Source: Candidatus Poseidoniaceae archaeon (lineage in GTDB: Archaea > Thermoplasmatota > Poseidoniia > Poseidoniales > Poseidoniaceae). Taken from it: 20,088 nt of DNA. Within the stretch, counting starts at the first letter, position 1; every line of letters starts with the position of its first letter. The position numbers and the translations under genes were made by a program. The stretch spans positions 1 to 20,088 of the forward strand of contig JAKMFY010000178.1 in assembly GCA_022425185.1 (NCBI GenBank). Direction: 5' to 3'. Below are positions 1,102 through 19,162 of this stretch, piece by piece. The notes under the pieces are model-generated. The model ran no database searches. It saw nothing but the letters and a program-made list of their open reading frames with translations, and was not told where the DNA came from.

Positions 1102-1109
1102 TTGATATA
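1102..1109 (+). promoter_or_regulatory. Candidate TATA box for the giant surface-protein gene
   Basis: TTGATATA matches 7 of 8 positions of the archaeal TATA consensus TTTAWATA. Initiation about 25 nt downstream would fall near 1130. That leaves a leader of about 16 nt that still contains the GAGGGG ribosome binding site (1136-1141) before ATG 1147. It lies just after the hairpin terminator. No BRE is obvious, and the promoter has not been shown experimentally. Confidence 0.4.
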
Positions 1110-1135
1110 CAGTTCTCTGGTCAGCAACCTGTTAA

Positions 1136-1141
1136 GAGGGG
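1136..1141 (+). promoter_or_regulatory. Shine-Dalgarno site GAGGGG deciding start at 1147
   Basis: GAGGGG lies 5 nt upstream of ATG 1147. This supports 1147 over the in-frame TTG at 1102, which overlaps the probable TATA box and adds no conserved or signal-like sequence. Confidence 0.6.
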
Positions 1142-1146
1142 CTTAC

Positions 1147-4100
1147 ATGCTGAAAATCCGATACAAAAAGAACTCAGAATCAAACATACTCACATCAGTG
1201 ATTTTAGTCATGCTCATGGTTATGAGTACGACACTCGCAATGATGATTCCAACAGAATGGGATGAGTCAGAGACAACAGTTGACGTTGAATACAGCCCTA
1301 TGGAAAGTAGCCCTGCTATGCAATCAATGAATCAAGCAGGTCAAGGTAGTTACGACGGCGTTACAACATTCAATGACGATAATGTCCACCCCTCTCTCAG
1401 TGACATTATGTGGGCAGATACCGGCATTGCATCTGGAGTAATCAATGACATTACTGCTGTTGAAGCAATGATGTCTTCGAATAATTTCCTCGTAGAAGAA
1501 TCTAACCGCGACGATCACGATAACGATGGTATCAGCGATTTGTACGATCTTGATGACGATAACGACGGAATCTATGACCTTCTGGAACGTTTCGACGGTT
1601 GTTTCGGAACAGACCCATTCGATCACGATAACGATGGTATCTCTGATGCAGATGACTGGGATGACGATAACGACGGAATTCTCGAAGGACCTCTTGACAT
1701 CGCCGCTCTTGAAGCCCAAGGACTTGATCCCCTCAATGTTAGTACTCACCGTTACTTGCCTGCTGATACAATTCATCCATGGACTGGTACCCAAGTTGGT
1801 GCCTTTTATCTTGCTGACCAGAGCCCATTTGACCACGATAACGATGGCGTAACAGACGAAGACACAGATGGATCTGGGGCAGGACGATTCGATGAAGATG
1901 ACGATAACGATGGCCGTATTGACCAATTTACATGGCCATGTGATTTCGATAATGACGGCGTAAGAGACTACTTTGACGAGGATGATGATGACGATGGTGT
2001 CTTAGACGTTGAAGATTCAAACCCGTATGATGCAACCATTACAACATCCCACACTCAAGCAGGCAATCTTTTCGCAGCCCCAACAGTATGGGACTTCATT
2101 GATTACCGCGACTACTCTGGTGGCGTGAACTACGTTACATGGGAAGCTGCAAGAGTAGATGCAAACGACGAGTTTGATTATGCGGGCGGAACAACTGGTG
2201 ACGGTGCAGCAGGTACGCCCTCATTCACAGACATCATCGACGGAGATCTTGACGGCGACGGAATTCCAAACTTCATCGATCCCGATAACGACAATGATGG
2301 AACTCCTGACTCAGCAGATACTGACGACGATAACGATCTTATTCTCGACATGTTTGACCCAGACGACGACAACGACGGGATTCCAGATGTTTGTGTGAAC
2401 GTTGATTTCAACAACGATGGCCTAAGCGATTATACTTGGACGGACAGGTCACCTTACGAAACACCTGGTGGAAACACCGATGGTAAAGCTGGAGTAGATT
2501 GTGAACTTGATTATGATCAGGACCTTGACGATGATCGCCTTCGTCCATTCGACCAAAATTACAACGCGGTCTATGATTGGCTCGACCCAGATATGGGTGG
2601 TACGACATCACCTGATAATCTTGGAAACGTATTGGTAAGTGGAGACGCTACAAACTTTGAGTACGATACAGACGACGACAATATCGATAACGAGAATGAC
2701 AGTTTCCCTCTCGACAAGGCATCAGACGTTATTGCTTGGAACTGTCCAACAGCAGCCAATCCAAACCCAACTAATCCAGATCCACGATGTCAAACACGCC
2801 GTGCATCTTTCTCCCAATTCAATGACTGGGACGGCGATGGTATACTCAACTGGGAAGACGTTGATGATGATAATGACGGAATTATCGATATGCTCGATAT
2901 TGATTGGGACTGCGATCTTGACAATGATGGAGACCTTCACGCTATCAACGGTGCATTGTATCGGGATGACGGACCAAACTCGGTGGATTCAGATATCGAC
3001 GGAGACGGCTTAGAAAATGACATTGACTGGGATGATGACAATGACGGCCTTTCTGATTTGTTTGACCCAGATGATGGCAACTGTGGCTTGGTTGATTCAG
3101 ATCTCAGTGATGCTTTCCAGCAACCAGCATACCCTGTAGGCGACGGGGGCTCTCTCACTGGTGGAGCAGATAACCAAGATTATGCTACAAACGCAGACTC
3201 CTATTGGGCTATGGTTTTCCTACACAACCCATTCTCCGAGATGATGCTCGATTACAATGGATATGACGGAACAACTAACCCAGTAACGCCGGGAACAATC
3301 CCTGAATTCTACTGGTTCCTCTTCTCCCGCTGGTCTTCTTACAATGGTGGAAACGAATGGGATATCGACAGTGATGGCGACTCTCTTGTCAACGGTCTGG
3401 ACATTGACCAAGACGGAGACGGACTTCCTGATTGGTGGGATCAAGATGAAGGAAACGACGGAATTCTAGACGTTAACGACGTGAAGATGGGTGGTTCGTT
3501 CAACATGACAACATGTGGAATAACTGTAGGAAACCTTGGCCAAGGCTTCGTGTGCGGATATGCCTATGCTATCGCTTACCAAATGCCGCTAAACGGTGTC
3601 AATGCCCAATTCGGCCTTCCATATTCAACACGTCCAGATGCAGTCATCGACCAAGGAGCGACTGCTGGTGGAGCCTCTGGCAACTGGTCTTGTACTCCAG
3701 GGGCACAAGGTGGCTGCTGGCATTACGACTTCGGTGGAGACGGCAATACAGATTCTGCAATAACCTATCTCCAAATGCAAAACAACCGTGACTCCTTCGT
3801 TACATGGATGGGCCTTTCCACAGGTATTTGGCAATGGAACTCAGACAATGGTCCTGAAGCAGATTTCCCTGATGAACTCGGGGCTGACTTACTCCAAAAC
3901 GATGTTGACGGCGATATTGACGGCGATTTCTACAACAATTCAATCGACCTTGACGATGATTATGACTCAGTTTTCGATTGGTTTGACGTCGATGATGATA
4001 ACGATGGTGTATGGGATTATTTCGAAATAGATTCAAACGATGATCTTGACGATGACTCAGGCCAAGAAAACGGAAATTTCTTCTCAGGCACAAATTGTGT

Positions 4101-7100
4101 TGACAACGACGATGACGGTAACGATGCAGACGCCGATGATGATGGCTTCTACCAAGCCGTATGGGATCGTGGTGACATGACCCTTGGCCTCATTCAACCT
4201 AAGGTATACGACGTTGACAACGACAACGACGGTGTACCAGACGGAGAAGATGTAGATGATGACAACAACGGAATCCTTGATGTTGACCAAGAACTCATTG
4301 CAGGATGTTTCTGGGGCGAGGAACAATCAACATGGGACCACGACAATGATGGAATTGTTAACTGGGCAGATGATGATTGGGATGGTGACGGAATCAGCAA
4401 CACCGTGGAATTACAAATTTCGTTAACTCAAGCATTCGACCATGATAACGATGGTGACAGAGATGACATCGATGTTGATGATGATCAGGACGGAATGCAT
4501 GACGAAGACGAGGTTATGTTATGGCCTGAGCGATTCCAACGAAATTCTACAAATCCATGGGATCACGATGATTTCGGCAGTGGTGAAGCACTTGCAAACC
4601 CAACAGATCCCTCCACAGGTCCAGACGTAATCGACGAAGATGATGACAATGATACGAGAGCAGACGCAGATTGGGATCATTTGGAAGAAGGCTTCTCATC
4701 CGATCCATGTTATGCAGGAGCTCTTTCTTCAGATTGGGACTCCGACAACGACTGTACACTTGATGAAGATGACAAGGCACCTACATTCATCACTCTAGAC
4801 ATGCCAGGGAATCTATGGATGGATGCTCAGAGCCCTGCAATCTTCAGCGGTGTTGTTACATGGGTCAATCCAATTACACTCGCTCAGGAAAATGCAAGCA
4901 ATATGCCTGTCCAAGTTCATATTGAATGGGCTGCCAACGGAACTACTGCAATCGAGACAACAAATATTCTCACCGGACAAGATGGCCGTTTCTCAGTAGG
5001 CCAGTTCCTCTATCCAGAGGACATCGTCGTAGGCGATAGCACGACCTACAAGGTCTATGCTGTTGTAACAGAAATGTTTGCTTTCAACGGTGCTACTTCA
5101 GCTGATTATTTGGTTGGTGTTGAGTCGAATATGACCATTGATCCAAGCAGTAACAACTGGGAGTTCTTCAGAAGTGATGAACAACAGTTATGGTTAGAAT
5201 TTTATTCCTATTACACTGCTGACTATCAGCGTGGAATCTATTCAAATCCGATCCCATATGCTCCAGTAACATTCTCGTTCTATGGCGGACTGTTTGGTAA
5301 CCTCACAGAGCCGACGAACTTTACCAATTTTGACGGACTTGGCTATCGTGCCAACTCCAACGGATTGACCTCAGTTTCATTCGAACAACTTGGAGGCGCG
5401 ACTGGTGTTTGGAAGCAAGTACAGTTCAACTCTACGATGGATAACGGAGCAGGTGTAGCACCTGGTGGTCTTGAAGAAATCATCTGGAATAATAACACAA
5501 AGGTTCACGATATTGTTCAGGATTCAGCTGGCCTATCAGCTCAGTATGAGCGTGTCAATACGAGTTTGCCAGCAGGTGACTACAGTTATATCGGACGCGT
5601 TCAACCTGATCTCGCCACAGAATACCCATTCCCATTCTTACACGGGGATGAGGATGAACCTCGTTCAATGCGTGTTATGCACAGAATGAACATCGCGGGT
5701 ACAATGACGCTTGAAGGAACACAACCAATTTCATTCTTCGATGCAACAATCAACAACGGCGATGGAACATTCGGTAACTGGAGATACATGTATCACGGCC
5801 CTGCACTTACTGCAGCCGGAATTGATTACAACGAAGTGTCAGCTTACAAGGCCTACAGCACACTTTGGGATGGCAATGACGCCTCTCTAACAGGACAAGC
5901 AGTCAGCATTATTGATTTCGTTGATGTCAACGCAACACATTGGTTCATCACCCTTGTTAACGGCGGAGATTCAAATCTTCCTCCATGTGGACAAGTTGAT
6001 CCAAGCGACCCGGATAGCCCAGTACGTTGTGAGATTGTACCAGAAATGGATACAGGCACATCTCTTGGACTCTCAGGTGATGTTTCAAACAGAACTGAAG
6101 TTCCCTGGACAATTGATCCAATTGCAGTTCAACTTGACAGAGACCGCAACGGTATCTTTAGCAGTGGTGGAGAAACCCAATTCACTCAAACACCGAAGTG
6201 TAAAGATGCACTTGGAAACGACATCCTCATGGTCATTCAAGGTGACATAACAGAATGTGAGACGAAAGGTGGAACAGAAGCAGTATATGATTACAACTTC
6301 ACCTGGGAAAGCCAATTCGCATCTGGTACTTACGGAATGCGCGTCGACTTTACCAACTCAGCATACTACTTCACAGGTAATTCCTCAAATCTTGCAACCA
6401 CTGGTGCTTACATTAACGTAACAGTCATCGGTACAACCGACTTCGAATTGACTTCAATTCCACGTTTGTATCGTAACACGAACACGTCAATACAAGCTCG
6501 ATTGATCGACAATTCACTACAACCTGTCCGAGAAGCACCGGTTAACTATACTTGGTCATTCGACGGTCGAACTGAAACAAGCTATACCGACACAAACGGC
6601 TTCTTTGAAATGCCATTCAACATCACTTCAGATGACGACCTAGGCTCATTCACACTGACGTTTGATTATGAAGGGACATCGTTACTCAAACCAAGCAACG
6701 CAGTCCAACAGGTATGGGTTGTTTCACGAACCTTCGTTTCAGTAATTTCGACAGACGACAATAGACGCCAGTCTGGAGATTTGTGGGACTTTACGGCTCA
6801 AGTGAAAGATGATAACAAGACGTTTGAATACGATTCGGGCGGACGTGATCTTGATGGTACTACTGCACCAAACGGTGGTCTTGTAGACGTTATCTTTGAG
6901 GGAACTGACTTCGACAACGTTCAACACCGTCAAGTCATTGCTACACTCTCTCCATCTGCGGGTGTAATTTCGTTACCAGAAACTCAACCAGACAATGCTC
7001 ATCTTTGTTACTATGATGGAAATGGCGATGGATTCGCTGACCGTGATCTTAACCAGAACGGTGTTCTGGAACGATTGGAAAGTGTTGGTTGTTTGAAGGC

Positions 7101-9087
7101 GGACATCAGTCCACTGAATCCAATCAATCTCAGGGAAGATCCTGAATCTTTCTTACCAGACGGATTCGGACCAGTCAATGTCATTCTTCGATTCGAAGAA
7201 TCGTTGCCAAACGAAGGCTGTGAGAGTCTTGATGCAAGTTACCTTGGACTACAAGGGCAATGGGATCCATGTGCGAATGTACCTGGAAACAACCATTTCC
7301 GGACGGTTATGACCTACAACGCAAATGGATTTTCTCTTATTGGAAGGACCCTCCTATCGGTTGATGACCAGATTGTTTACACAAGCGAAATTGACCCGGT
7401 TACAGGACTTGTTGTTCCTAAGCCAATGGTTGTCACAGGACAGTTGAAAGATGAACTCGGAACCAATCTAACCGACCGTACAATTCGTGTGAGTTATGAG
7501 ATGGTAAACGGTCAAAGCGGCCCAGTGAATTGTAATGCTGGCGTTACTGACGGCGATGGATTCTACTCTATATCCTGCCCACTTTCCGATGCAACTGCTG
7601 GTAAGACGAAGGTTACAGTCTCGTATTCTTCGTATGATAACAACGATGCATTCCGCTACGACAACAAGACAGTTCAAACAGAATTCGATGTATTTTCAAA
7701 TTCAACACTCGCGATCAACGAAGTTGGGCCATTCAAGTCCAGTGTCGACACATTGACAGTTGATGGAATACCTTACCCAGTTCTTTACTTGAAGGAATCA
7801 TTCCACGTCGATGCATTGCTCAGCCAGAGTAACGGACGTTCAGTTGGTGGAAAGTGTTTGAACATCTATCTCGACCCTGAAGAAAATATTCGACCGATTG
7901 CAACAATTCGCACAAGCGATATTGATGGAACCGCAGAATGGTTTAGTGGAGATCCTCTCCAAAATCCAACACTGCGTGGTGTCGAATTAACCGGTGGTAA
8001 GAAAGAAGGATTCAGAACTCTACGAGTTGCCTTTGAGCCTGACTTCAACATCCCTGGTGGTTGTGACAGAGACATAGAGAATGTTCTCAATGGTTCATTC
8101 GCTGAACTGGATGTATTGGTTCGTTCTCGCGTCGACATGCGCGTTGAAACGACATGGTACAGAGGCGGCGAAGCTGGTGTTCCAGATGACACGCTCATCC
8201 TCGGTGAAGTAGCGTTACTGCGTGACAGAATTGACGTTGCAATCGAGGGTGAAGAGATTCAATTCATTGCTCAATATCGAAACGAAACCGGTGCATGGAC
8301 AACAATGCCTGGTTTGTTGGATAGTCCTAGTACCAAAACAACAGAACAAGGAATTGCTCGATTTGAGTGGAACTTCAGTGGACGCTCATGCGACGGGTCT
8401 GAGTGTACTGGCGAATGGCAAGTCATTGCTGTCTATTCCGGAAGCACTAATTTCCAAGCATCCCAGAACAACATCACTTTCGCTGTAGATTACAAAGAAG
8501 GCGTTAGCGAGGAAAAGGCTGGCTTCTTCTCTCCAGAGAATTTGATGGCGTATGGAATTGTCCTGATGGCCTTGCTTGTTGCTAGTGCACTGTACTATCG
8601 CCGAGCAATGAGCCGGAGACAAGTACAGTCTCTGCGTGGTATTCTCACAGATACGATGATGCAATTAGAAGCGAGTAACGAATACATCAAGATCATCTTC
8701 GATTGTTACAAGAATCTCGTCAAGCACTTCCGTAAGTACGGCTTCATGAAGAAGGTTTACGAAACAACTCGTGAATTCGAAGCAGCAGTTCGTGCAGCGT
8801 TCAACATGGTACCTCCGCAACAACTCGACGGTTTCCTCACTATCTTCGAAGAGGCACGTTATTCCGACCATAACATCGGAGTCATGCAACGTGACCAGGC
8901 CATTTCAACGCTCGGTGCTATCACCACTTCGATCACCGCCGCTCTTGGCGAGGACTCGTTAGTGAAGCGATACGAAGGCACTGGTTTGTACGATAAGCAA
9001 ACCAAGGCTGGAGAATTTGTTGCTGCTGATGGAACAACACGTCAAGCAGGAATCGTTGAAGGCGAATCGACCGACTTCAAGATTTGA
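1147..9087 (+). CDS. Giant TSP3-repeat / beta-sandwich surface protein with TM anchor and cytoplasmic DUF4129-like domain
   Basis: The protein is about 2646 aa from ATG 1147. Residues 1-35 are a basic start plus a hydrophobic stretch (ILTSVILVMLMVMSTTLAMM), a signal peptide or anchor. Residues about 122-1212 hold roughly 35 Asp-rich TSP3-like repeats (DDDNDGI, DHDNDG, DWDGDG), broken by Trp/Tyr- or Cys-containing inserts, the largest at about 779-918. Residues about 1215-2460 are beta-sandwich sequence with several G-x-[FA] turns such as TDTNGFFEMPF and TDGDGFYSISC, resembling carboxypeptidase-regulatory/Ig-like domains. A single transmembrane helix follows at about 2465-2486, then about 160 cytoplasmic residues. 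These include IIFDCYKNLVKHFRKYGF, a T-x-x-EF segment and LTIFEEARYSDH, a pattern I recognise as DUF4129-like. Predicted topology is outside stalk, one helix, inside domain. Role in adhesion, Ca2+ sensing or envelope structure is inference. The gene is alone between a hairpin terminator and a 51-nt gap. Confidence 0.9.
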   Translation: MLKIRYKKNSESNILTSVILVMLMVMSTTLAMMIPTEWDESETTVDVEYSPMESSPAMQSMNQAGQGSYDGVTTFNDDNVHPSLSDIMWADTGIASGVINDITAVEAMMSSNNFLVEESNRDDHDNDGISDLYDLDDDNDGIYDLLERFDGCFGTDPFDHDNDGISDADDWDDDNDGILEGPLDIAALEAQGLDPLNVSTHRYLPADTIHPWTGTQVGAFYLADQSPFDHDNDGVTDEDTDGSGAGRFDEDDDNDGRIDQFTWPCDFDNDGVRDYFDEDDDDDGVLDVEDSNPYDATITTSHTQAGNLFAAPTVWDFIDYRDYSGGVNYVTWEAARVDANDEFDYAGGTTGDGAAGTPSFTDIIDGDLDGDGIPNFIDPDNDNDGTPDSADTDDDNDLILDMFDPDDDNDGIPDVCVNVDFNNDGLSDYTWTDRSPYETPGGNTDGKAGVDCELDYDQDLDDDRLRPFDQNYNAVYDWLDPDMGGTTSPDNLGNVLVSGDATNFEYDTDDDNIDNENDSFPLDKASDVIAWNCPTAANPNPTNPDPRCQTRRASFSQFNDWDGDGILNWEDVDDDNDGIIDMLDIDWDCDLDNDGDLHAINGALYRDDGPNSVDSDIDGDGLENDIDWDDDNDGLSDLFDPDDGNCGLVDSDLSDAFQQPAYPVGDGGSLTGGADNQDYATNADSYWAMVFLHNPFSEMMLDYNGYDGTTNPVTPGTIPEFYWFLFSRWSSYNGGNEWDIDSDGDSLVNGLDIDQDGDGLPDWWDQDEGNDGILDVNDVKMGGSFNMTTCGITVGNLGQGFVCGYAYAIAYQMPLNGVNAQFGLPYSTRPDAVIDQGATAGGASGNWSCTPGAQGGCWHYDFGGDGNTDSAITYLQMQNNRDSFVTWMGLSTGIWQWNSDNGPEADFPDELGADLLQNDVDGDIDGDFYNNSIDLDDDYDSVFDWFDVDDDNDGVWDYFEIDSNDDLDDDSGQENGNFFSGTNCVDNDDDGNDADADDDGFYQAVWDRGDMTLGLIQPKVYDVDNDNDGVPDGEDVDDDNNGILDVDQELIAGCFWGEEQSTWDHDNDGIVNWADDDWDGDGISNTVELQISLTQAFDHDNDGDRDDIDVDDDQDGMHDEDEVMLWPERFQRNSTNPWDHDDFGSGEALANPTDPSTGPDVIDEDDDNDTRADADWDHLEEGFSSDPCYAGALSSDWDSDNDCTLDEDDKAPTFITLDMPGNLWMDAQSPAIFSGVVTWVNPITLAQENASNMPVQVHIEWAANGTTAIETTNILTGQDGRFSVGQFLYPEDIVVGDSTTYKVYAVVTEMFAFNGATSADYLVGVESNMTIDPSSNNWEFFRSDEQQLWLEFYSYYTADYQRGIYSNPIPYAPVTFSFYGGLFGNLTEPTNFTNFDGLGYRANSNGLTSVSFEQLGGATGVWKQVQFNSTMDNGAGVAPGGLEEIIWNNNTKVHDIVQDSAGLSAQYERVNTSLPAGDYSYIGRVQPDLATEYPFPFLHGDEDEPRSMRVMHRMNIAGTMTLEGTQPISFFDATINNGDGTFGNWRYMYHGPALTAAGIDYNEVSAYKAYSTLWDGNDASLTGQAVSIIDFVDVNATHWFITLVNGGDSNLPPCGQVDPSDPDSPVRCEIVPEMDTGTSLGLSGDVSNRTEVPWTIDPIAVQLDRDRNGIFSSGGETQFTQTPKCKDALGNDILMVIQGDITECETKGGTEAVYDYNFTWESQFASGTYGMRVDFTNSAYYFTGNSSNLATTGAYINVTVIGTTDFELTSIPRLYRNTNTSIQARLIDNSLQPVREAPVNYTWSFDGRTETSYTDTNGFFEMPFNITSDDDLGSFTLTFDYEGTSLLKPSNAVQQVWVVSRTFVSVISTDDNRRQSGDLWDFTAQVKDDNKTFEYDSGGRDLDGTTAPNGGLVDVIFEGTDFDNVQHRQVIATLSPSAGVISLPETQPDNAHLCYYDGNGDGFADRDLNQNGVLERLESVGCLKADISPLNPINLREDPESFLPDGFGPVNVILRFEESLPNEGCESLDASYLGLQGQWDPCANVPGNNHFRTVMTYNANGFSLIGRTLLSVDDQIVYTSEIDPVTGLVVPKPMVVTGQLKDELGTNLTDRTIRVSYEMVNGQSGPVNCNAGVTDGDGFYSISCPLSDATAGKTKVTVSYSSYDNNDAFRYDNKTVQTEFDVFSNSTLAINEVGPFKSSVDTLTVDGIPYPVLYLKESFHVDALLSQSNGRSVGGKCLNIYLDPEENIRPIATIRTSDIDGTAEWFSGDPLQNPTLRGVELTGGKKEGFRTLRVAFEPDFNIPGGCDRDIENVLNGSFAELDVLVRSRVDMRVETTWYRGGEAGVPDDTLILGEVALLRDRIDVAIEGEEIQFIAQYRNETGAWTTMPGLLDSPSTKTTEQGIARFEWNFSGRSCDGSECTGEWQVIAVYSGSTNFQASQNNITFAVDYKEGVSEEKAGFFSPENLMAYGIVLMALLVASALYYRRAMSRRQVQSLRGILTDTMMQLEASNEYIKIIFDCYKNLVKHFRKYGFMKKVYETTREFEAAVRAAFNMVPPQQLDGFLTIFEEARYSDHNIGVMQRDQAISTLGAITTSITAALGEDSLVKRYEGTGLYDKQTKAGEFVAADGTTRQAGIVEGESTDFKI

Positions 9088-9138: not shown

Positions 9139-9600
9139 ATGCGCTCTCAAGTTATCATGGAAGACTGGAAGATACTCATCGACCGAGCTATGCAGCAAGA
9201 AACACAGAACACGATTGAAGCACACAAGATATACGGTGATGCAGTACGTTCAGCACTCGCTCAAACCCAAATGCTTCTTGGCGATTTGGAGGCGGCACAA
9301 GTCATAGAGGCCTTGTACGGTGCTCTTGTAGCATACTCGCAGCAAGTCATGCTTCGAATGAAAGCGGAAGACCCAGAAGTCGGCGGTGTCGATCATGCAT
9401 TCCGTGCAGGCCAAGCTTACGGAGTCTCCTGTGTGCTAAACCATCTCATCGATCAATTGACCGACGTGGCTGGAATTACGGCTCTCGGCGCTCTAGATGA
9501 TATCTCAGATACACTTCATGACGAAATTATCATCCAAGGTCGTGCTGCAGGCTTAACTGTCGAACTCTTGGATGCAAAAGGCGAAATTCTCTTCGATTGA
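9139..9600 (+). CDS. Unrecognised 153-aa helical cytoplasmic protein
   Basis: I do not recognise this family. The protein has no signal peptide, transmembrane segment or Cys pair motif. The first about 130 residues look strongly helical and Ala/Leu-rich (QQETQNTIEAHKIYGDAV, EAAQVIEALYGALVAYSQQV), as in TPR/MIT-like or helical-bundle proteins. The C-terminus (GLTVELLDAKGEILFD) looks like a short beta hairpin. ATG 9139 directly follows GGGTGGG, too close for normal ribosome binding. A second ATG at 9157 (MEDWKILID) is an equally good start and would give 147 aa. It lies between the giant surface protein (51 nt upstream) and the ribosomal operon (76 nt downstream). A working partnership with either side is possible but unsupported by the sequence. 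Confidence 0.75.
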   Translation: MRSQVIMEDWKILIDRAMQQETQNTIEAHKIYGDAVRSALAQTQMLLGDLEAAQVIEALYGALVAYSQQVMLRMKAEDPEVGGVDHAFRAGQAYGVSCVLNHLIDQLTDVAGITALGALDDISDTLHDEIIIQGRAAGLTVELLDAKGEILFD

Positions 9601-9608
9601 GTCTCTCC

Positions 9609-9650
9609 TCTCGCGTCGGTGGCTTCATAACCAGCAGGTAGGTCGCGAGA
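9609..9650 (+). other. Inverted repeat in the leader of the ribosomal operon
   Basis: TCTCGCG (9609-9615) and CGCGAGA (9644-9650) form a perfect 7-bp stem around a 28-nt loop, followed by a small ATGC/GCAT hairpin. It lies just after the stop of the 153-aa gene and before the rpl18e ribosome binding site. It could be a leader structure or autoregulatory target for the ribosomal operon. The loop holds a CTTCATAACC stretch resembling a tRNA anticodon arm, but no cloverleaf folds. Confidence 0.35.
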
Positions 9651-9665
9651 ATGCCTCAAAGCATC

Positions 9666-9672
9666 GAGGGAG
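9666..9672 (+). promoter_or_regulatory. Shine-Dalgarno site GAGGGAG for rpl18e
   Basis: GAGGGAG lies 4 nt before ATG 9677. It supports the short L18e start over the in-frame upstream extension, which would run through the end of the previous gene. Confidence 0.65.
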
Positions 9673-9676
9673 TCAT

Positions 9677-10042
9677 ATGAGCAAGCCAATACGAAAGACA
9701 AACGCAGATTTGATCGAGTTAATCGGTCAACTGAAAGCCCAGTCTCGTGATACAGGTGTTGCACTATGGCGAGATGTTGCTCAGCGCCTCTCTAAGAGCC
9801 GCAAAAACTGGGCCCAGCCAAACCTAAGCCGCGTAACTCGTTACGCTCCAGAGGATGCCACCATCCTTGTACCTGGAAAACTGCTTGGATCTGGTGAAGT
9901 CACAGGGAACCGCACCATCGCCGCCTACAGTGTCAGCACAAGCGCACGAGCCAAGATTGAAGCCGCTGGTGGGCGAATTCTCACCTACGGTGAATTGATG
10001 AACGAAAACCCAAACGGAAACGGGGTGATTATCCTTGGATGA
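9677..10042 (+). CDS. rpl18e: Large ribosomal subunit protein eL18 (L18e)
   Basis: This 121-aa protein matches archaeal L18e, a 50S subunit protein of archaea and eukaryotes absent from bacteria. Visible family features are the N-terminal KTN...LI..L...S...G..LWRDVA..L segment, the central ILVPGKLLGSGEV motif and the C-terminal AAGGRILTYGEL...NPNG.GVIILG. Length is normal for the family. The start at 9677 gives MSKPIRKTN and has a ribosome binding site; an extension upstream adds about 35 non-conserved residues. It is the first gene of rpl18e-rpl13-rps9-rpoN, and its last 8 nt overlap rpl13, as expected for coupled translation in this conserved archaeal operon. Confidence 0.95.
   Translation: MSKPIRKTNADLIELIGQLKAQSRDTGVALWRDVAQRLSKSRKNWAQPNLSRVTRYAPEDATILVPGKLLGSGEVTGNRTIAAYSVSTSARAKIEAAGGRILTYGELMNENPNGNGVIILG
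10022..10029 (+). promoter_or_regulatory. Shine-Dalgarno site GGGGTGAT deciding the TTG start of rpl13
   Basis: GGGGTGAT lies inside the end of rpl18e, 5 nt before TTG 10035. It is close to the archaeal GGAGGTGAT consensus, and there is no in-frame ATG near enough that keeps the conserved L13 N-terminus. Confidence 0.75.
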
Positions 10043-10523
10043 AGCAACAACCTACGTCTTTGACGCAGATGGACTCGTCCTAGGACGTCTCGCATCTACA
10101 GTAGCAGATATGCTTCTGAAGGCTGCACGCTCGGACCGTGATGACAAAGTTGTCATCATCAACTCTGAAAAAGCAATTGTTTCGGGAAGTTCAACTTCTG
10201 TTCTACAGAACTATCACGATAAGTATGCACTGAACCATGCTCGCAAGGGTCCTTTTTACCCACGTATGCCTGACATGATTCTCAAGCGAACTGTCCGTGG
10301 AATGTTACCTTATCAAAGAAAGAGCAGTGGCCGTAGAGCACTACGAAACCTACGTGTAGAAATCGGCTGCCCACACCATCTTACCTCAGGCATGCCAGAA
10401 GGCCATGTTGAAGGCGATGACAGTAAGATTCGCAAATCCTTGCCAGAAAGCTATGTCCGCCTCGGCGACATCAGCGCAAGTCTCGGTGCGCCAGCGCACC
10501 GATGGACCGGAGGTGACCAATGA
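10035..10523 (+). CDS. rpl13: Large ribosomal subunit protein uL13
   Basis: The 162-aa protein is archaeal L13, an early-assembling 50S protein. The N-terminus reads VFDADGLVLGRLASTVADMLLK, the usual archaeal L13 opening, followed by VVIINSEKAIVSG, then KGPFYPRMPDMILKRTVRGMLPY, the highly conserved core. The start is TTG 10035, overlapping the L18e stop; it is chosen because a strong ribosome binding site precedes it and because the first in-frame ATG would remove the conserved first strand. The gene ends in a TGA that overlaps the rps9 start region (ATGA arrangement). The C-terminal tail (GDISASLGAPAHRWTGGDQ) is a little longer than the core family. Confidence 0.95.
   Translation: MDEATTYVFDADGLVLGRLASTVADMLLKAARSDRDDKVVIINSEKAIVSGSSTSVLQNYHDKYALNHARKGPFYPRMPDMILKRTVRGMLPYQRKSSGRRALRNLRVEIGCPHHLTSGMPEGHVEGDDSKIRKSLPESYVRLGDISASLGAPAHRWTGGDQ
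10509..10516 (+). promoter_or_regulatory. Shine-Dalgarno site GGAGGTGA for rps9
   Basis: This is a full-strength match to the anti-SD. It is 3 nt from ATG 10520 and 6 nt from ATG 10523, so the second ATG has the better spacing. Confidence 0.75.
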
Positions 10524-10954
10524 TGGCACGTAAGAAGAAGTCAGTAGAAAGTTCAGGAAAGAGAAAGACAGCGGTTGCACGAGCATCCGTTAAAGCAGGA
10601 AAAGGTCGAGTTCGCGTAAACAGTGAACCTATCGAAATCCTACAACCATCTCTTGCACGCCGTAAGGCAATGGAACCTCTGATCATTGCAGATGCAATGA
10701 ATCGCCTTTCCAAGGTTGACATCAATCTCACCACTAACGGTGGAGGAATCATGGGCCAAACCGATGCAATTCGAACTGCAATTGCTCGTGGCCTGGTTCA
10801 CTACAACGGTGGAGCAGAAGGAATCGACGAAGAACTTCGTGACGAGTACCTACGATTTGATCGTAGCCTGCTTGTCAACGATCCTCGTCGTAAGGAAGCA
10901 AAGCACCAACTTGGACGTGGTGCTCGCCGTAAGAAGCAAAAGTCCTATCGATGA
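10523..10954 (+). CDS. rps9: Small ribosomal subunit protein uS9
   Basis: This is archaeal S9 of about 143 aa, a 30S protein whose basic C-terminal tail reaches the decoding site. It shows the typical GKRKTAVARASV N-terminus, the central TTNGGGIMGQTDAIRTAIARGLV segment (equivalent to the G-G-G..GQ..A...GIARAL core), DPRRKEAK, and the invariant C-terminal GARRKKQKSYR ending in Lys-Ser-Tyr-Arg. Two adjacent ATGs (10520, 10523) are possible; 10523 has better ribosome-binding spacing, while 10520 overlaps the L13 stop. The gene is third in the operon, with rpoN starting 11 nt later. Confidence 0.95.
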   Translation: MARKKKSVESSGKRKTAVARASVKAGKGRVRVNSEPIEILQPSLARRKAMEPLIIADAMNRLSKVDINLTTNGGGIMGQTDAIRTAIARGLVHYNGGAEGIDEELRDEYLRFDRSLLVNDPRRKEAKHQLGRGARRKKQKSYR

Positions 10955-11302: not shown

Positions 11303-14300
11303 ATGGTTCAATCGCTAGCACTTGTTATGCGCTCCCGAGCCGTTGCATTGTTTGTTCTTCTCCTAGCGACCAGTCTCACTCCATTTGTGTCTTCAGATGT
11401 AACCATCACAGCTGCTGATGCAACCTGGGATGGACAGAACCATGTTCTCGATGGTAACGTAACAGTTTCTTCCACATCAACTCTTACGATTGAGCCTGGA
11501 GCAGTCATTGACACGGGAGATTATTGGATTCAAATCGACGGAACTCTCATCGCTACAGATGTGGAATTCATGTCGAGTATAACGCCGAGCAGTCAAGGTT
11601 CAACTGGAGCAGGTTTGTGGCCAGGGATCATCATTTCATCAACAGCTGAAGCGGTACTAACCAATGTTACAATTCGTGGTGCAGAATCTGCATTAGCAGT
11701 CCATGGAGACGTTACAATCCATGAAGAAATCCTCATTACAAACAGCTACATTGGTCTTGATATACATCCCACAGGAACGGTAGTAGCGGAAAACGTAACA
11801 ATGGAAACAATCGATATCCAGGCGGTCCACAACGAGGGTCAATTTACTGTTACAACAGGCGAATTTACGAATGCCGCAACTGGAATTTATTCTTCAAACC
11901 AACTTACTGCATCCGATGTCACGTTTAATGAAACTGGTTTCGCCCTTGATATCGTCGCAGGAGATGCTACAATTGTGGGTCTTGGTCTGGATAATGTTAG
12001 CGTTGGAATAGGTTCTGATGCTGGGGCGTCAACCACCGTGAGTAGCATTTTTGGACAATACGTCGCCCTATTCATAGACGGTTCAGGTACTGACGATTTG
12101 ACAGTCTCAGACGCCCTTCTTACCGGAGATCGTTTCCTATGGGGATCGGTTGAGAGTATCTACGTGTCAGAAGTAGATTTCACTCAGCAGGCGCTTGATA
12201 GAACAGTAATTGACATACGCTGTACTATCGATTGTATGTTTGATGACGTAACACTCTCTCAAACAGAAATCGGGTTTGACATCGATGGGCCCGGCATAAC
12301 TGAAATTAAGAACAGCAATATTGAATCAACAAATACCGCTTTACGAGGTTCTGGAGACGGTCTGCTGATTATCGAAGAATCAAATTTCACATCCCAAGGA
12401 AAAGTAATGACGTTTTCAGGTCTCGATACCGAGATTACAGATACAAATGCCGAATTAAGTCAAGGAGATGGCCCTGCAGTCAAGGTCTTAGAAGGTCACC
12501 ATGAATGGAACGAATTTAATGTTGAAAAAGCTTACAGCAGTGCCGATGTTACATCTCAGGGTATCGATGCATGGTACACTTCGATCCAATCGACAACATT
12601 AACGACAAACGGATTTTCAACAGGTGCTTTATTCGAAGATAGCACTCTAACTGCGGAAACTGCAACGTTCATCAATGGAAAAGTCACTGGGCTTTATGGA
12701 ATTCAATCCACATTCACGTTTGAGGATTTGACAACATCTACTCAACAATACGGCGTTCGATTAGGGGATGAATCACATCTCCAAACTTCGATATGGGCCG
12801 CAAATCTCCACAATACACCACTTCTTCTCGAAGGAGAATCAACAGCAAACGCTCGTAAATTTACTCCTCAAAACACCGCTCAAGGGTCATCAGACGCAGT
12901 AGGCGATGGCACCTTCCTCTACGGAGGACCTATAACGAGCACAATCTCAACAACAGAATATGGCTATCTTTACGAAACATATGTCTCATTCACTGACATC
13001 AATAATCAACCTATTCAAGCAGAAGCGTATGCTCATCATTTCCTTTCGACCGGAGATACAAACGGGGTAGCCTCTCTTCCACTTCTATCGACGGGCTCAA
13101 TGGTCGATGTTCTCTATCAAGGCGCTGGAGTTCGCGCAGAATTAGTTGGTAATCAAGCGGGCCAATCGGTTCAGATCATAACCGTTCCTCAAGGAGATTG
13201 GAACCTTCCTTCTTCTTCCACCGTTGTTCTCGGAGCAAAACCTGACGGAAGCCCTCACATGCTAAATGGAAATCTCAACTTTGCAACAAACTCTCAATTG
13301 AAACTTATCGATACAACCCTGATCGTGGATTCGTCTTCTTCCGTTGACATGGGTGCGTCAGGCACACTTTCAGGCGACGGAGGAATTCTCAATGCAACCT
13401 CGCTCTCACTGAACGTTCAATCAACTTTTACATCCGAAGGAAACGGTCTTGAGATCCAATCACCGGTTCAATGGTCGTGTTCATCTCCACAATCCATTAG
13501 CAACGTTCGGTTCACATCAACGCTCTCCATTGGTGCATTATGCGATGTTGAAATGATTGGGGGAGAAGCGAATGAACAGATTACTGTAGGCTCAGGCGGC
13601 TCCTTTTCACTTTCATCAACTCTTGAAATCAACGTTCTCGACAAAGGAGTCCCCGTTGAAGGAGCTACAATCATTGTAGATGGCCAAACAGTTTCCACCA
13701 ACGCACTCGGGGAAGCAATAGCGCAAACAACAGCCCGTTCAGTTGACTCTCAGGGAGATGTTCAAAGCGGGATTAAAACAGTTACAATGCAAATCCAGTC
13801 GTTTACTGAGTTCTTTGCTTGGGATACAAAAAGATCGACATCTCACACATTCATGGCCTCTACAGTGCCTACAGGTACAATCAACTCATGGCTCGTTCTT
13901 GAGAAATCCTGGAGTCCGTATCGCCTTGAAGGAGACTTAACCATTGCATCCACAACGAAACTTACAGTCAATGACGGCGTTGAACTTCGTATTGCATCTC
14001 AGGCAGTCATCGATGTTCAAGGGGTCTTTGAAGCAGGTTCTGCAACCATTTCCTCGACAGGATTTGGAGCACGTTGGGGTGGATTACTTCTTGATGGAAT
14101 CGTTGGTTCAAGAATTCAACTTTCAGGAACTCAACTCGTCGAAGGCTCACCATTACTCACAGTATCAGGATACGGAGAGATGGTTGCAGAAAACGTGAAT
14201 TTTGCCCGTTCAGCAGGAGCTGATCCGTTGATTTCAATCAGTTCAGGTGCACAAGGAATAGTTTCAATTTCTAATTCTCATCTTCGAGACGCCGGTTCGA

Positions 14301-15991
14301 TGTGTATTCAATCACAAAGTCCTGACGCGAAAATAGTCCTAGACGGCGTTGAATTTACAGACTGCAACGGCGATGCAGCGTGGATTCGCTTGTCTGATGT
14401 TGCATTCAATAACGTAACAATCAATGAAGGGATGGACGATGGTCTTGCTCTAATTGGCGTCACCGGTCATGTAAGTAACCTGAAAACATCATCTTTCGTT
14501 GGAGATTCAACAGTTCGACTGGAATCTATCGATGGGGATTTTATTATCGAAGATTCTCAAATATCAGTTGGGTCAGAAGTCGGATTAATTGCCTTCAATT
14601 GTGATGATATCATCATCAGAAATCTGGAAATTGCAGGAGCTCCTGGATTAGATATTGACGAAACTTCGGGACAATTAGAGCAAATATATGCTCACGGAAA
14701 TGGAATAGGGACCGGCGTAACGATTCGACATGGGCAAGCCTCATCGATGATGGTCTCGGACCTTTCGATTACCAATTATTCGGTTGGCTTACGCCTCCAC
14801 GCACATGATTTTGAAGAACCAGGGGTAGCGTACTTCCACAATCTGTCAATCGATTCATCTGATGCTCTATCCATTGAGTATTACGATGCCCAAATTTCAG
14901 ATTCTGATTTAGTTGGATCGATTTCAGTAGCAGGAAGCACAATCAACATGATCGATAGTTCAATCGTTGGTACAAAATCAATCTCAGCTGATGGAATCCT
15001 TAGTGAATGGAGCACACACTCCTTAAGCGCAATGCTGAATGGGTTCTTTGTCGAAGCAACCTATGTTATTTCAACCGAACTACTCGATCAGCCTAGTACC
15101 TATAGCGGACAATTTGTTGATGTAATTCTTCAATATTCCAAGCATACAGAAACACAATCCGAATCGAGTACAAATGCAATGATAGAGACATATTCAGAAA
15201 TGAGCTTGGTCAACAATTCAGAATTTGAACTTGGAAACAATCTGAACCAACAGGTTACCATCGTCCTCTCGCCAAACGCTGCTCCAATTGCAACTGTAAA
15301 CGCCCCTTATTCAGGACAACGCTTTATGGAAACTACGCCAATTGAGGTTCGTTACATAGTTTCTGATGATACAACAGAACTCTCAGATATCGTCATGTCT
15401 TGGAAAGTCTTTGATGCCCAAGGGCAACTCGTCACTGAAGGGGCGCTCAGCGATACAGGTTCTGCATTCAACGTTACAAACTTAGGGCCAGGGTTGTATG
15501 TCTTGCAAGTTATTGCAACGGATGACCTAAATCTCTTCTCCACCACTGAGGTTGACTTTGAAGTAACACTCCTAGATACAGATGGAGATTGGATTTCATC
15601 ATGTAATTCAGACACATGGTTTGACGCGTCAAATGGAGTACAATGTGGGCCTGACATTTACGATCCTGATGATGATAATGATGGACGTCTTGATGATAAT
15701 GATGTATGGCCAATAGATGCTTGTGCTTGGATGGATACCGATGATGATGGGCAACCTGATCGCATTGAATGCCCAGAAGGACAGACAACCATGCTCTTTG
15801 AAGATCAAGATGATGATGGTGATGGGACTCCTGATGAACTTGAAGGAAAATCTTCCACCAAGAACGAAGATCAAAGCACAGGACTTCTCCTAATAGGAGG
15901 AATTGTTGTCATTGTTCTCATTATTTTCTTCGTACGAACTCGTGGAGGAGGCCCAAAGAGCCTCGGCGAGATTGACGAACGTATGCTCTGA
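11303..15991 (+). CDS. Parallel beta-helix surface protein with TSP3 segment and C-terminal membrane anchor
   Basis: The protein has 1562 aa. The N-terminus is a signal peptide (MRSRAVALFVLLLATSLTPF, cleavage near VSS-DV). The start may be ATG 11303 or ATG 11327, which begins exactly at MRSR; no ribosome binding site decides. The body is Thr/Ser/Asn-rich with short regular strands (LTIEPGAVI, VTIRGAES, IEESNFTSQG) typical of right-handed parallel beta helices. An opening module with L-x-G-x-[LV]-T-[IV] and W-x-G motifs appears near residues 38-120 and again near 870-945, with a weaker copy near 650-700. Carboxypeptidase-regulatory-like turns (DINNQPIQAEA, DKGVPVEGATI) separate these. An Ig/PKD-like domain covers about 1327-1424, and TSP3-like repeats (DPDDDNDGRLDD, DDDGDGTPDE) about 1425-1520. 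A helix at 1527-1547 and a basic tail (RTRGGG) form a type I anchor. Ligand and function are unknown; adhesion or polymer binding is a guess. Confidence 0.9.
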   Translation: MVQSLALVMRSRAVALFVLLLATSLTPFVSSDVTITAADATWDGQNHVLDGNVTVSSTSTLTIEPGAVIDTGDYWIQIDGTLIATDVEFMSSITPSSQGSTGAGLWPGIIISSTAEAVLTNVTIRGAESALAVHGDVTIHEEILITNSYIGLDIHPTGTVVAENVTMETIDIQAVHNEGQFTVTTGEFTNAATGIYSSNQLTASDVTFNETGFALDIVAGDATIVGLGLDNVSVGIGSDAGASTTVSSIFGQYVALFIDGSGTDDLTVSDALLTGDRFLWGSVESIYVSEVDFTQQALDRTVIDIRCTIDCMFDDVTLSQTEIGFDIDGPGITEIKNSNIESTNTALRGSGDGLLIIEESNFTSQGKVMTFSGLDTEITDTNAELSQGDGPAVKVLEGHHEWNEFNVEKAYSSADVTSQGIDAWYTSIQSTTLTTNGFSTGALFEDSTLTAETATFINGKVTGLYGIQSTFTFEDLTTSTQQYGVRLGDESHLQTSIWAANLHNTPLLLEGESTANARKFTPQNTAQGSSDAVGDGTFLYGGPITSTISTTEYGYLYETYVSFTDINNQPIQAEAYAHHFLSTGDTNGVASLPLLSTGSMVDVLYQGAGVRAELVGNQAGQSVQIITVPQGDWNLPSSSTVVLGAKPDGSPHMLNGNLNFATNSQLKLIDTTLIVDSSSSVDMGASGTLSGDGGILNATSLSLNVQSTFTSEGNGLEIQSPVQWSCSSPQSISNVRFTSTLSIGALCDVEMIGGEANEQITVGSGGSFSLSSTLEINVLDKGVPVEGATIIVDGQTVSTNALGEAIAQTTARSVDSQGDVQSGIKTVTMQIQSFTEFFAWDTKRSTSHTFMASTVPTGTINSWLVLEKSWSPYRLEGDLTIASTTKLTVNDGVELRIASQAVIDVQGVFEAGSATISSTGFGARWGGLLLDGIVGSRIQLSGTQLVEGSPLLTVSGYGEMVAENVNFARSAGADPLISISSGAQGIVSISNSHLRDAGSMCIQSQSPDAKIVLDGVEFTDCNGDAAWIRLSDVAFNNVTINEGMDDGLALIGVTGHVSNLKTSSFVGDSTVRLESIDGDFIIEDSQISVGSEVGLIAFNCDDIIIRNLEIAGAPGLDIDETSGQLEQIYAHGNGIGTGVTIRHGQASSMMVSDLSITNYSVGLRLHAHDFEEPGVAYFHNLSIDSSDALSIEYYDAQISDSDLVGSISVAGSTINMIDSSIVGTKSISADGILSEWSTHSLSAMLNGFFVEATYVISTELLDQPSTYSGQFVDVILQYSKHTETQSESSTNAMIETYSEMSLVNNSEFELGNNLNQQVTIVLSPNAAPIATVNAPYSGQRFMETTPIEVRYIVSDDTTELSDIVMSWKVFDAQGQLVTEGALSDTGSAFNVTNLGPGLYVLQVIATDDLNLFSTTEVDFEVTLLDTDGDWISSCNSDTWFDASNGVQCGPDIYDPDDDNDGRLDDNDVWPIDACAWMDTDDDGQPDRIECPEGQTTMLFEDQDDDGDGTPDELEGKSSTKNEDQSTGLLLIGGIVVIVLIIFFVRTRGGGPKSLGEIDERML

Positions 15992-17004: not shown

Positions 17005-17035
17005 ACCTTAAATGAGGTCGAGTGGGTGGGTTGGT

Positions 17036-19162
17036 ATGGCCAAATCTGACGCGTCCGATAATGGTCAGAATCAACGCATAGATTGGCTTGCTGAACAAAT
17101 TGCATACCATTCAGATCTCTATTACAATCAAGCGGTAACTGAACTTTCAGATTCAGAATTCGACGCTCTGTGGGATGAACTGAAACAACTCGACTCAACA
17201 CACCCCCAATTGCAACGCGTCGGAGCAGAAATAGATCCTGGAACCGTTAAAGTAGACCACATGTTTCCCATGCGCTCGTTAAACAAAGGCACAACAGATG
17301 AAGACATTGGCCACTTCGTGCGCGAATCCTCTCTTGAGGCGACCCGATTTATTTCCCAGCCCAAACTCGATGGATCGGCTCTCTCTCTTGAATACAGAAA
17401 AGGCCGCCTTGTCCGCGCAGCAACCAGAGGTAGTGGAAACCGAGGAGAAGATGTTACGAAGAATGCTCGGCGAGTAGAGAATGTCCCTCATACGCTTGGT
17501 GTTGAAGTAGATGTCCACATCCGTGGAGAGGTGGTTATGCGCAAGTCAATCTTCGAAGAGCGCTATGCAGAAGTTTCCCCCAATCCAAGAAATCTAGCCG
17601 CAGGGGCATTGCGTCAAAAGAAAGCAGAAGGCAAAGCCAATGCGAGCGATTTGGTGTTTCTAGCATATGATGCCAAATTTCCCGAAGAATCACTACGCCA
17701 TCCCGACTCAACTTCACCCCCAGTCGTCGAGAATGATAGCGAGATTCTTTCTTGGCTTTCGGAGACTGTGGGGGTTACGCCTGCCCCATGGATAATCACT
17801 GAATCGGAGGAAGCAGATGAGTTAACAATAGGGCTCTGCAATGAAACAGAGAAGTGGACCAATGAACGAACAGGATATGAGTTTGAAATAGATGGTCTTG
17901 TTTTCAAAGTCGACGATTTATCGAAGCGAGAATTACTCGGTATGACAGCGCACCATCCAAGATGGGCGCTTGCATGGAAATTCCCACCCGAGGAAGCCAC
18001 ATCTGTCTTGCTTCACGTCGATTGGCAAACAGGACGAACAGGAACCATCACTCCGGTTGCACGCATCGCTCCTCAACGAGTTGGAGGGGTTACGGTTGAG
18101 AACACTACGCTACACAATCTTGGTGAAGTCGAGCGTTTGGACATCAGTATTGGAGATAAAATCCGAATCGTACGACGAGGGGATGTTATTCCAAAAATCG
18201 AGGCCAGCCTCGGGCCCGCATCACAAACAGATCTCGAAGGGCGAGTCCATGCAGATGGAGAGCCGTTCACAGGCCTGTTACCAGGAAGAAAGCCGATAAA
18301 TGCGCCCGATGCGTGTCCTGCATGCAATGGTGCAGTGGAGATTGAGGGCGCCTTTATTCGATGCGTCGATGTACATTGTGATGCCAGAATGGGAAGAAGC
18401 ATCCTCTACTATTGTCGTGCATTGGAGATGGATGGTATTGGCGAGAAGCTCGTCGATCAGCTCCTTTCAGAGGGGCTCATAGATGGCATAGCGGATCTCT
18501 ATGAGTTGGATGAAACAAAACTTCTGTCCCTAGAACGAATGGGACAGAAATCTGCAACGAATGTTCTCAAAGAGATTGATAAGACTCGTTCGATGACCTT
18601 TTCAAAATTCCTTCAAGCACTTGGATTACCAGGTATTGGGCCAGAATTAGCGTTTGCTATCGCCGTACATTTTCAACAACCTAGTCGGTTGATGGAATGG
18701 GTTTCGGAGAGTTATCAAGAGCCAGAGAGAATTCAAGAATTGACCTCTCTCGAAGGTGTAGGGGATATCGTTACGCTTCAATTACGAGACGGAATTAAGA
18801 TCCGCAGTCAGGCAGTTGAGTCTCTCCTCTTACATCTAACGATTCAAGCAGAGCAACCAAAAATCGATCAGGGTCCTTTTGTTGGTATGACGTTCTGTGT
18901 TACAGGAACGCTTTCCGAACCGAGAAAAACCATACAATCGAGAATTAAAGCAGCCGGTGGAAAAATTGTTGGAAGCGTATCAGGCAATCTCTCAGTACTC
19001 GTTGCTGGAGAAAATGCTGGCTCCAAACTCGCCAAAGCAGAGAGTTTAGGCGTTACTGTTTGGAATGAAAAACTCCTCACACAACAGATTCTCGATGAAC
19101 CAATCCAAGAGAAACCTACTGAGAAAGCCCACTCAGAGCAACCGACTTTATTCGATTATTGA
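17036..19162 (+). CDS. ligA: NAD+-dependent DNA ligase (bacterial type LigA)
   Basis: This 708-aa protein seals nicks in duplex DNA, using NAD+ to form the enzyme-AMP intermediate. All LigA domains are present in order. They are the Ia NAD-binding region (YHSDLYYNQAVTELSDSEFD), the adenylation domain with the nucleophilic Lys110 in QPKLDGSALSL, the RGEVVM and FEIDGLVFKVD motifs, and WALAWKFPPEEA. The OB fold (RTGTITPVARI) follows, then a four-Cys zinc finger (C427, C430, C443, C448), helix-hairpin-helix repeats (about 470-600) and a BRCT domain (about 612-682). Start: ATG 17036 gives MAKSDAS; ATG 17012 would add eight non-conserved residues. Most archaea use ATP-dependent ligases, so this is a gene of bacterial origin. 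The C-terminal tail after BRCT ends in QPTLFDY, resembling a PCNA-interacting peptide. Confidence 0.96.
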   Translation: MAKSDASDNGQNQRIDWLAEQIAYHSDLYYNQAVTELSDSEFDALWDELKQLDSTHPQLQRVGAEIDPGTVKVDHMFPMRSLNKGTTDEDIGHFVRESSLEATRFISQPKLDGSALSLEYRKGRLVRAATRGSGNRGEDVTKNARRVENVPHTLGVEVDVHIRGEVVMRKSIFEERYAEVSPNPRNLAAGALRQKKAEGKANASDLVFLAYDAKFPEESLRHPDSTSPPVVENDSEILSWLSETVGVTPAPWIITESEEADELTIGLCNETEKWTNERTGYEFEIDGLVFKVDDLSKRELLGMTAHHPRWALAWKFPPEEATSVLLHVDWQTGRTGTITPVARIAPQRVGGVTVENTTLHNLGEVERLDISIGDKIRIVRRGDVIPKIEASLGPASQTDLEGRVHADGEPFTGLLPGRKPINAPDACPACNGAVEIEGAFIRCVDVHCDARMGRSILYYCRALEMDGIGEKLVDQLLSEGLIDGIADLYELDETKLLSLERMGQKSATNVLKEIDKTRSMTFSKFLQALGLPGIGPELAFAIAVHFQQPSRLMEWVSESYQEPERIQELTSLEGVGDIVTLQLRDGIKIRSQAVESLLLHLTIQAEQPKIDQGPFVGMTFCVTGTLSEPRKTIQSRIKAAGGKIVGSVSGNLSVLVAGENAGSKLAKAESLGVTVWNEKLLTQQILDEPIQEKPTEKAHSEQPTLFDY

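Follow-up and report, generated by a model that had tools for sequence, protein, structure and literature searches.

A conserved PCNA-interaction-like peptide at the C-terminus of the bacterial-type DNA ligase of Poseidoniales

The bacterial-type, NAD+-dependent DNA ligase (LigA) of a Candidatus Poseidoniaceae archaeon ends in the heptapeptide QPTLFDY (residues 702-708; positions 19139-19159, plus strand), which, judged from sequence comparison, is very probably (about 0.88 by our own estimate) a functional PCNA-binding motif, of the single-aromatic type that is common in its phylum. This PIP-like motif occupies the extreme C-terminus of the protein, is conserved across the order, has been kept through synonymous codon changes and resembles the ends of the FEN1 proteins of the same order. 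The pattern suggests that a bacterial-type ligase has been refitted to an archaeal replication machine. The order, Ca. Poseidoniales or Marine Group II (MG-II), is an abundant group of ocean archaea (PMC10160649). The window analyzed here, a stretch of 20,088 nucleotides, is one contig of a 1.67-Mb genome that is 76% complete.

The ligA gene (17036-19162, plus strand, as are all features of it given below) encodes a putative NAD+-dependent ligase of 708 residues, whose cofactor use and ligase activity are assigned from its domains and from full-length profile matches above cut-off (TIGR00575 of NCBIfam, 524.7 bits against 444.45; PRK07956, 527.9 against 369). Residue numbers count from the start at 17036, and an alternative in-frame ATG at 17012 would lengthen the product by 8 residues. 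A profile search finds a single LigA match in the window's own genome. The Pfam matches comprise the NAD-binding Ia, adenylation, OB, HhH and BRCT domains, and the zinc-finger model is not among them. In a 28-sequence alignment, K110, D112 and G113 of the KLDG motif (residues 110-113, 17363-17374) are invariant, K110 presumably being the adenylated lysine, as are four cysteines, C427, C430, C443 and C448 (18314-18379), which we take to be the zinc finger expected of LigA. Behind the BRCT domain (residues 613-681, 18872-19078; PF00533, 45.2 bits) lies a variable linker (residues 688-701, 19097-19138), and the protein closes with ...EPIQEKPTEKAHSEQPTLFDY, followed by the stop codon. The AlphaFold2 model (28 sequences) has a mean pLDDT of 86, falling below 50 for residues 688-708, where linker and motif are predicted to be disordered; a three-residue helical turn at 705-707 in this low-confidence part was given no weight. 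The sequence-only reading had placed QPTLFDY directly before the stop, with the spacing Q-x-x-L-x-x-Y and no second aromatic, which is correct, and had called the tail after the BRCT domain probably disordered, which holds as a prediction.

Elsewhere in the window, a PCC-domain gene (PF03479, 16570-17004) directly precedes ligA and is read in the same direction. Two very large proteins, putatively located at the cell surface and encoded at 1102-9087 (2661 residues with many DxDxDG repeats) and 11303-15991 (1562 residues with a right-handed beta-helix match), flank an L18e-L13-S9 ribosomal cluster at 9572-10954.

The archaeal PIP has been defined as QXXhXXaa (PMC4929162) and, for Haloferax volcanii, as QxxLxxFx (PMC7776575). 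QPTLFDY places Q702 at position 1, L705 at position 4 (L/I/M) and the aromatic Y708 at position 7, where the protein ends, such that the second aromatic of the strict definition (position 8) is missing, while the looser definition, which does not require it, accommodates the peptide. Its location is predicted to be flexible and exposed, as the low pLDDT of residues 688-708 indicates. Because the second aromatic is absent, we class QPTLFDY with single-aromatic PIP-like motifs, which would work as a PIP does, and do not count it as a full QXXhXXaa member. Known archaeal carriers include FEN1, PolB, PolD, RFC-L, RNase H2, NucS and NreA (PMC4929162, PMC7776575), which share the Q-x-x-hydrophobic-x-x-aromatic pattern, often at a flexible C-terminus; here, the motif is instead carried by a bacterial-type NAD+-dependent ligase, and the word "ligase" has 0 occurrences in the main text of PMC4929162. 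A structure of A. fulgidus PCNA in complex with a PIP peptide is available (1RXM), and the residues following the Q adopt a 3-10 helix, which enters a hydrophobic pocket.

LigA is present in 57 of 60 Poseidoniales genomes, including each of the 20 with completeness of 90% or more and contamination of 5% or less. Across 66 Poseidoniales LigA, one per genome and from both sampled families, 51 carry Q..[LIM]..[FYWH] (the Q-motif) in their last 15 residues, and 10 more retain the core with another residue (R, K, P, S, E, A, L or T) at the Q position, e.g. RQTLFDF, KKTLFDYE and GTLDRWL; the position-7 aromatic of these 61 is F or Y in 57, W in three and H in one. When each 30-residue tail is shuffled over 2000 rounds, 0.45 of the 66 match on average and 5 at most. 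Left out of this set were genomes without a LigA match (G019, G020, G028), without the LigA C-terminus (G002, G014) or not fetched (G171, G174), together with duplicates (L057, L058, L091-L098, L100-L103). Three named Poseidoniales stand outside the 66, namely L144 with QTTLGDF, L147 with QSTLGEF and the g15-like L149, whose LigA has no motif.

Absence of the peptide from close relatives, which the sequence-only reading had named as evidence against itself, applies to five of the 66. The LigA of three members of genus g15 stop right behind the BRCT fold and have no tail; L033, of genus g16, has a short unrelated end, and its g16 mates end RQSSLGDF and EESLDDF, as in a decay series of the motif; for L052, a remnant, DQKSLMDF, survives only in another frame. 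Given these five proteins and L149, the motif is dispensable in some lineages.

Within the genus of the window's organism, the T, L, F, D and Y of TLFDY are invariant in 20 of 20 members, 19 of which retain Q and 18 P, and T, L, F and Q are written with different codons (three for T, four for L, two for F, and 10 CAA to 9 CAG for Q). Conservation of the DNA instead of the peptide is rejected by these synonymous changes at fixed residues. In contrast to this fixed end, each of the 13 preceding positions, counted from the end without gaps, shows 5-11 different residues among the same 20 members. Counting the window's own protein, the 120 nearest in the database end QPTLFDY in 115 cases, QSTLFDY in three, and QQTLFDY and NPTLFDY in one each. 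Measured from the GSK motif of the BRCT domain to the stop, the tail spans 26-69 residues (median 46) in the 66 Poseidoniales LigA, as compared with 23-47 (median 28) in 77 bacterial LigA and 24-93 (median 28) in 39 LigA of other Thermoplasmatota. A fixed end on a freely changing tether looks like a short binding motif, and the tail motif is real and under selection at the protein level. A chance origin is rejected by the shuffles and by the control LigA sets described next.

The bacterial control set was drawn with two conserved-word patterns, covers the phyla unevenly and consists of 77 LigA among the best 80 of the matches listed; the Q-motif is found in the last 15 residues of none of the 77, one of which (L166) is cut by the contig end. 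Common occurrence in bacterial LigA, another finding that had been named as contrary evidence, is therefore not seen among the matches listed. The Q-motif is likewise found in 0 of 40 LigA of other Thermoplasmatota (40 of the 41 in the sample, G087 being the one not included), which rejects the notion that all archaeal LigA have the tail, and in 0 of 108 further, mostly unnamed, LigA hits. A query of viral contigs with the window LigA as single protein gave no match; an alignment used as query gave 199 viral relatives, the best 80 of which contain one C-terminal match (L331), which lies inside the BRCT fold, and one near the N-terminus (L270, QKTLTDH); a viral origin or spread of the tail is rejected on these grounds. 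Three single LigA of other lineages, L109, L131 and P0130, end KQSTLL*, QKTLF* and YQTKLFQ*, which resemble shortened versions of the motif. The sequence-only reading had named conservation in archaea only as what would support it. Conservation in both sampled families and absence from the 77 bacteria bear out part of this, and "archaea only" proved too wide: because two or three other Thermoplasmatota LigA lineages lack the Q-motif, the statement narrows to this order, plus a sister clade that carries the motif at the other terminus.

Proteins that would work beside LigA end in the same way. A DNA pattern for the end motif gave 22 matches in eight genomes against 12 for the backward pattern, a weak signal modestly above control; the 22 comprise six LigA, two FEN1, one piece of a family-B polymerase (PolB), one photolyase and 12 short frames or frames without a true stop. 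The FEN1 ends thus found are QTSLFDF and QPTLFDF and the PolB end is QQTLFDF; as the FEN1 pair scores below the TIGR03674 cut-off (329 and 326 against 352) and the PolB piece below its cut-offs too, these names rest on best matches. FEN1 matches occur in 49 Poseidoniales genomes, and 40 of the ends were read: 30 of 30 follow [QKR]-x-[ST]-L-F-[DS]-F, 26 of them with Q, and a further 10 of 10 match the core, all with Q and one (L257) with two residues beyond the motif, bringing the core to 40 of 40 ends, 36 with Q and 39 without a second aromatic. The C-terminal piece of the window genome's own FEN1 reads GQTSLFSF. Outside the order, Q-x-x-L-x-x-F is present in 10 of 10 readable FEN1 ends. Among all 50 FEN1 ends, only L261 (QSSLSDFF) has a second aromatic; given that the other 49 lack it, stopping at the first aromatic is usual here, and the worry that LigA lacks a second aromatic is answered by FEN1 of the same order.

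Two further observations were made on these proteins. The FEN1 gene of the window's own genome (G000:C207:1983-3028) is split over two frames, through sequencing error or real damage. The photolyase/cryptochrome-like protein of another Poseidoniales genome (L076; G029:C17, minus strand, end at 1501), named from best matches below cut-off, ends GQKSLVDF*, a PIP-like tail on a repair enzyme.

The cell appears to hold the clamp that such a tail would require. PCNA is found in 54 of the 60 Poseidoniales relatives, and the PCNA of the window's organism (L031:899-1648, minus strand) is, among solved structures, closest to those of Haloferax and A. fulgidus, sharing the C-terminal LAPR[IV]xS. The ATP-dependent ligase domain PF01068 was found in 0 of the 60 relatives, many of whose genomes are incomplete (20 are at least 90% complete), and a control search was positive in 6 of 14 named genomes. 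LigA is the only replicative-type DNA ligase found in Poseidoniales.

Across a sample of 145 Thermoplasmatota genomes, compared by hand, LigA is present in 75, PF01068 in 74 and both in nine, such that the two ligases are almost mutually exclusive. Three listed classmates outside the order, of family f3, have LigA in 0 of 3 and PF01068 in 2 of 3. LigA from two genomes that also hold an ATP ligase (L135, L139) have no Q-motif. Family f16, with 18 sampled genomes that have LigA and none with PF01068, has no Q-motif either, and LigA can therefore serve at an archaeal fork even where no obvious motif is present.

In phylogenetic trees, the Poseidoniales LigA form one clade next to a clade that holds the LigA of genome G098 (family f26, not among the 74 genomes with PF01068), with forks at or near full support, and the other Thermoplasmatota LigA fall into two or three separate clades among bacteria. 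The first tree comprised 30 rows from Poseidoniales, 38 of the 40 from other Thermoplasmatota and 40 drawn at random from the 77 bacteria; the second comprised 13 Poseidoniales, 11 other Thermoplasmatota, 22 bacteria and 8 of 12 proteins of the neighboring clade. As both were rooted at midpoints and bacterial sampling is uneven, calling this clade "sister" assumes a root among bacteria, and the uneven coverage of phyla means that the donor of the Poseidoniales LigA cannot be named. The LigA of two family f2 genomes (L042 of G051, L045 of G037) nest within the f1 clade, which hints at transfer inside the order.

The sister clade carries the motif at the opposite end of the enzyme. In all nine of the proteins P0121-P0129 it lies within the first 45 residues, as QRNLLNF, QLNLFDY, QGSLLDF, QGKLFDY, QVGLFDY, QGRLFDF or QGTLLDF; shuffled sequences give 0.44 matches on average and at most 4 of 9. 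Among full-length members this amounts to 9 of 11, P0130 and P0132 being without it; P0131 is a fragment. The nine are not independent of one another, since P0122-P0124 share 81-84% identity with P0121. No such N-terminal motif was found in the first 45 residues of 108 other LigA, 120 f5-type LigA or 120 Poseidoniales LigA, and a looser N-terminal scan matched 2 of the 77 bacteria among the matches listed, in the first helix region (L179) and in frame upstream of the likely start (L193). The host phylum is known for P0121 (G098) only, and G098 is the sole match at E 1e-150 in 389 Thermoplasmatota genomes. That the peptide recurs on this enzyme, but at the opposite end, had not been predicted and is the best independent support for the clamp-binding reading. 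In f5-type LigA, [TSP]LD[EK]F without the Q, e.g. TLDEFF, occurs in the last 20 residues of 29 of 120 proteins and of 0 of 108 others, a possible Q-less PIP and weaker third case; in L112, L118, L126, L107, L113, L114 and P0241-P0271, f5 LigA that were separately acquired, it stands behind a charged linker.

We would lay even odds on a history in which the NAD+-dependent ligase supplanted its archaeal counterpart in the ancestors of both Poseidoniales and the sister lineage (one member of which, G098, is known to be archaeal), after which a clamp-binding peptide arose independently at opposite ends, C-terminal in Poseidoniales and N-terminal in the sister lineage, with perhaps a third, Q-less C-terminal version in f5. 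If true, these opposite-end gains would be a natural replicate experiment in which short linear motifs connected a transferred replication enzyme to a foreign clamp.

For Poseidoniales, we propose that a bacterial-type NAD+-dependent ligase replaced the ATP-dependent ligase of archaea in an ancestral member of the order and, once transferred, became coupled to PCNA by acquiring a short peptide. The linker behind the BRCT domain would act as a flexible tether, and Q702, L705 and Y708 at its end would insert into the PIP pocket of PCNA as the FEN1 tail would. PCNA left at a processed Okazaki junction may hold FEN1 and then LigA, the nick being handed from the former to the latter, a role less sure than PCNA binding itself. 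Given the losses in g15 and g16 and the tail-less, LigA-only family f16, the tail would be helpful but not indispensable. The claim that a bacterial ligase was fitted to an archaeal fork by a clamp-binding tail, as put forward in the sequence-only reading, is supported by the order-wide motif and the controls, from which we infer the binding to PCNA.

Other explanations of the tail must account for the same observations. If it were a bacterial beta-clamp-binding motif inherited from the donor, the fit of QPTLF to the QxxL(x)F consensus and the precedent of H. pylori LigA, which is held by its own beta clamp via a short peptide near the BRCT domain (PMC4976356), would be readily explained. That peptide, however, is residues 554-561 and meets a bacterial clamp, as opposed to the extreme C-terminal peptide and, as we infer, archaeal PCNA of Poseidoniales; the beta clamp domain PF02767 was found in 0 of the 60 relatives, while the control search was positive in 10 of 14 named genomes, these 10 being bacteria; such a tail is seen in none of the 77 bacterial LigA among the matches listed; and the conserved part extends to [DE]-[FY], as in archaeal FEN1. 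As far as these partly incomplete genomes show, the beta-clamp reading is rejected, and we give it almost no credence. Slightly less far-fetched, yet still highly improbable, is the view that the disordered end is neutral, serves only for protection or acts as a degradation tag, and resembles a PIP by chance. Predicted disorder and the five of 66 LigA without the motif agree with it, but it leaves unexplained why the motif is conserved over two families behind a linker that varies in sequence and length, why codons vary synonymously at fixed residues, and why FEN1 and one PolB have the motif in common with LigA.

A further alternative agrees with our preferred reading on PCNA binding and differs in purpose: the tail would serve mainly excision repair, not Okazaki joining, with replication relying on other contacts. 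The motif loss in g15 and the tail-less, LigA-only f16 show that replication is possible without the tail, and each of the two Haloferax ligases, LigN among them, can provide the essential function (PMC7776575). Since FEN1, an Okazaki enzyme, has the same tail, and the search for an ATP-dependent ligase alongside LigA was negative in the order (0 of 60), we consider a primarily repair-related role unlikely, if the most credible of these alternatives, and favor PCNA-bound LigA acting at the replication fork.

Eukaryotic and archaeal ATP-dependent ligases bind PCNA, and their PCNA-binding site lies at the N-terminal end. The job proposed for Poseidoniales LigA, PCNA-coupled nick sealing, is the same, and the N-terminal motif of the sister clade lies at the corresponding end; cofactor and domain order differ, and PF01068 is not found in the order. 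The studied archaeal NAD+-dependent ligase is H. volcanii LigN, also a bacterial-type ligase acquired by an archaeon, which in vivo can take a share in the essential ligase function (PMC7776575, PMC4606414); it differs in standing beside an ATP ligase, and the portions of these two papers available to us do not mention a LigN PIP. In Table 3 of a 2014 comparison, the ATP-dependent ligase of MG-II is marked X, i.e. absent or unavailable, the genome being incomplete, and its NAD-dependent ligase is bracketed as transferred from bacteria (PMC4153887). The transferred ligase of MG-II was therefore already known, and what is new here is the tail; in the open-licence PMC literature we found no description of an NAD-dependent ligase with a PCNA motif.

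A bacterial-type enzyme from the core of replication seems to work in the replication machine of another domain of life, with a seven-residue peptide as its visible adaptation. This makes testable how transferred informational genes get fitted to foreign partners, for which the opposite-end motif of the sister clade would provide an independent replicate.
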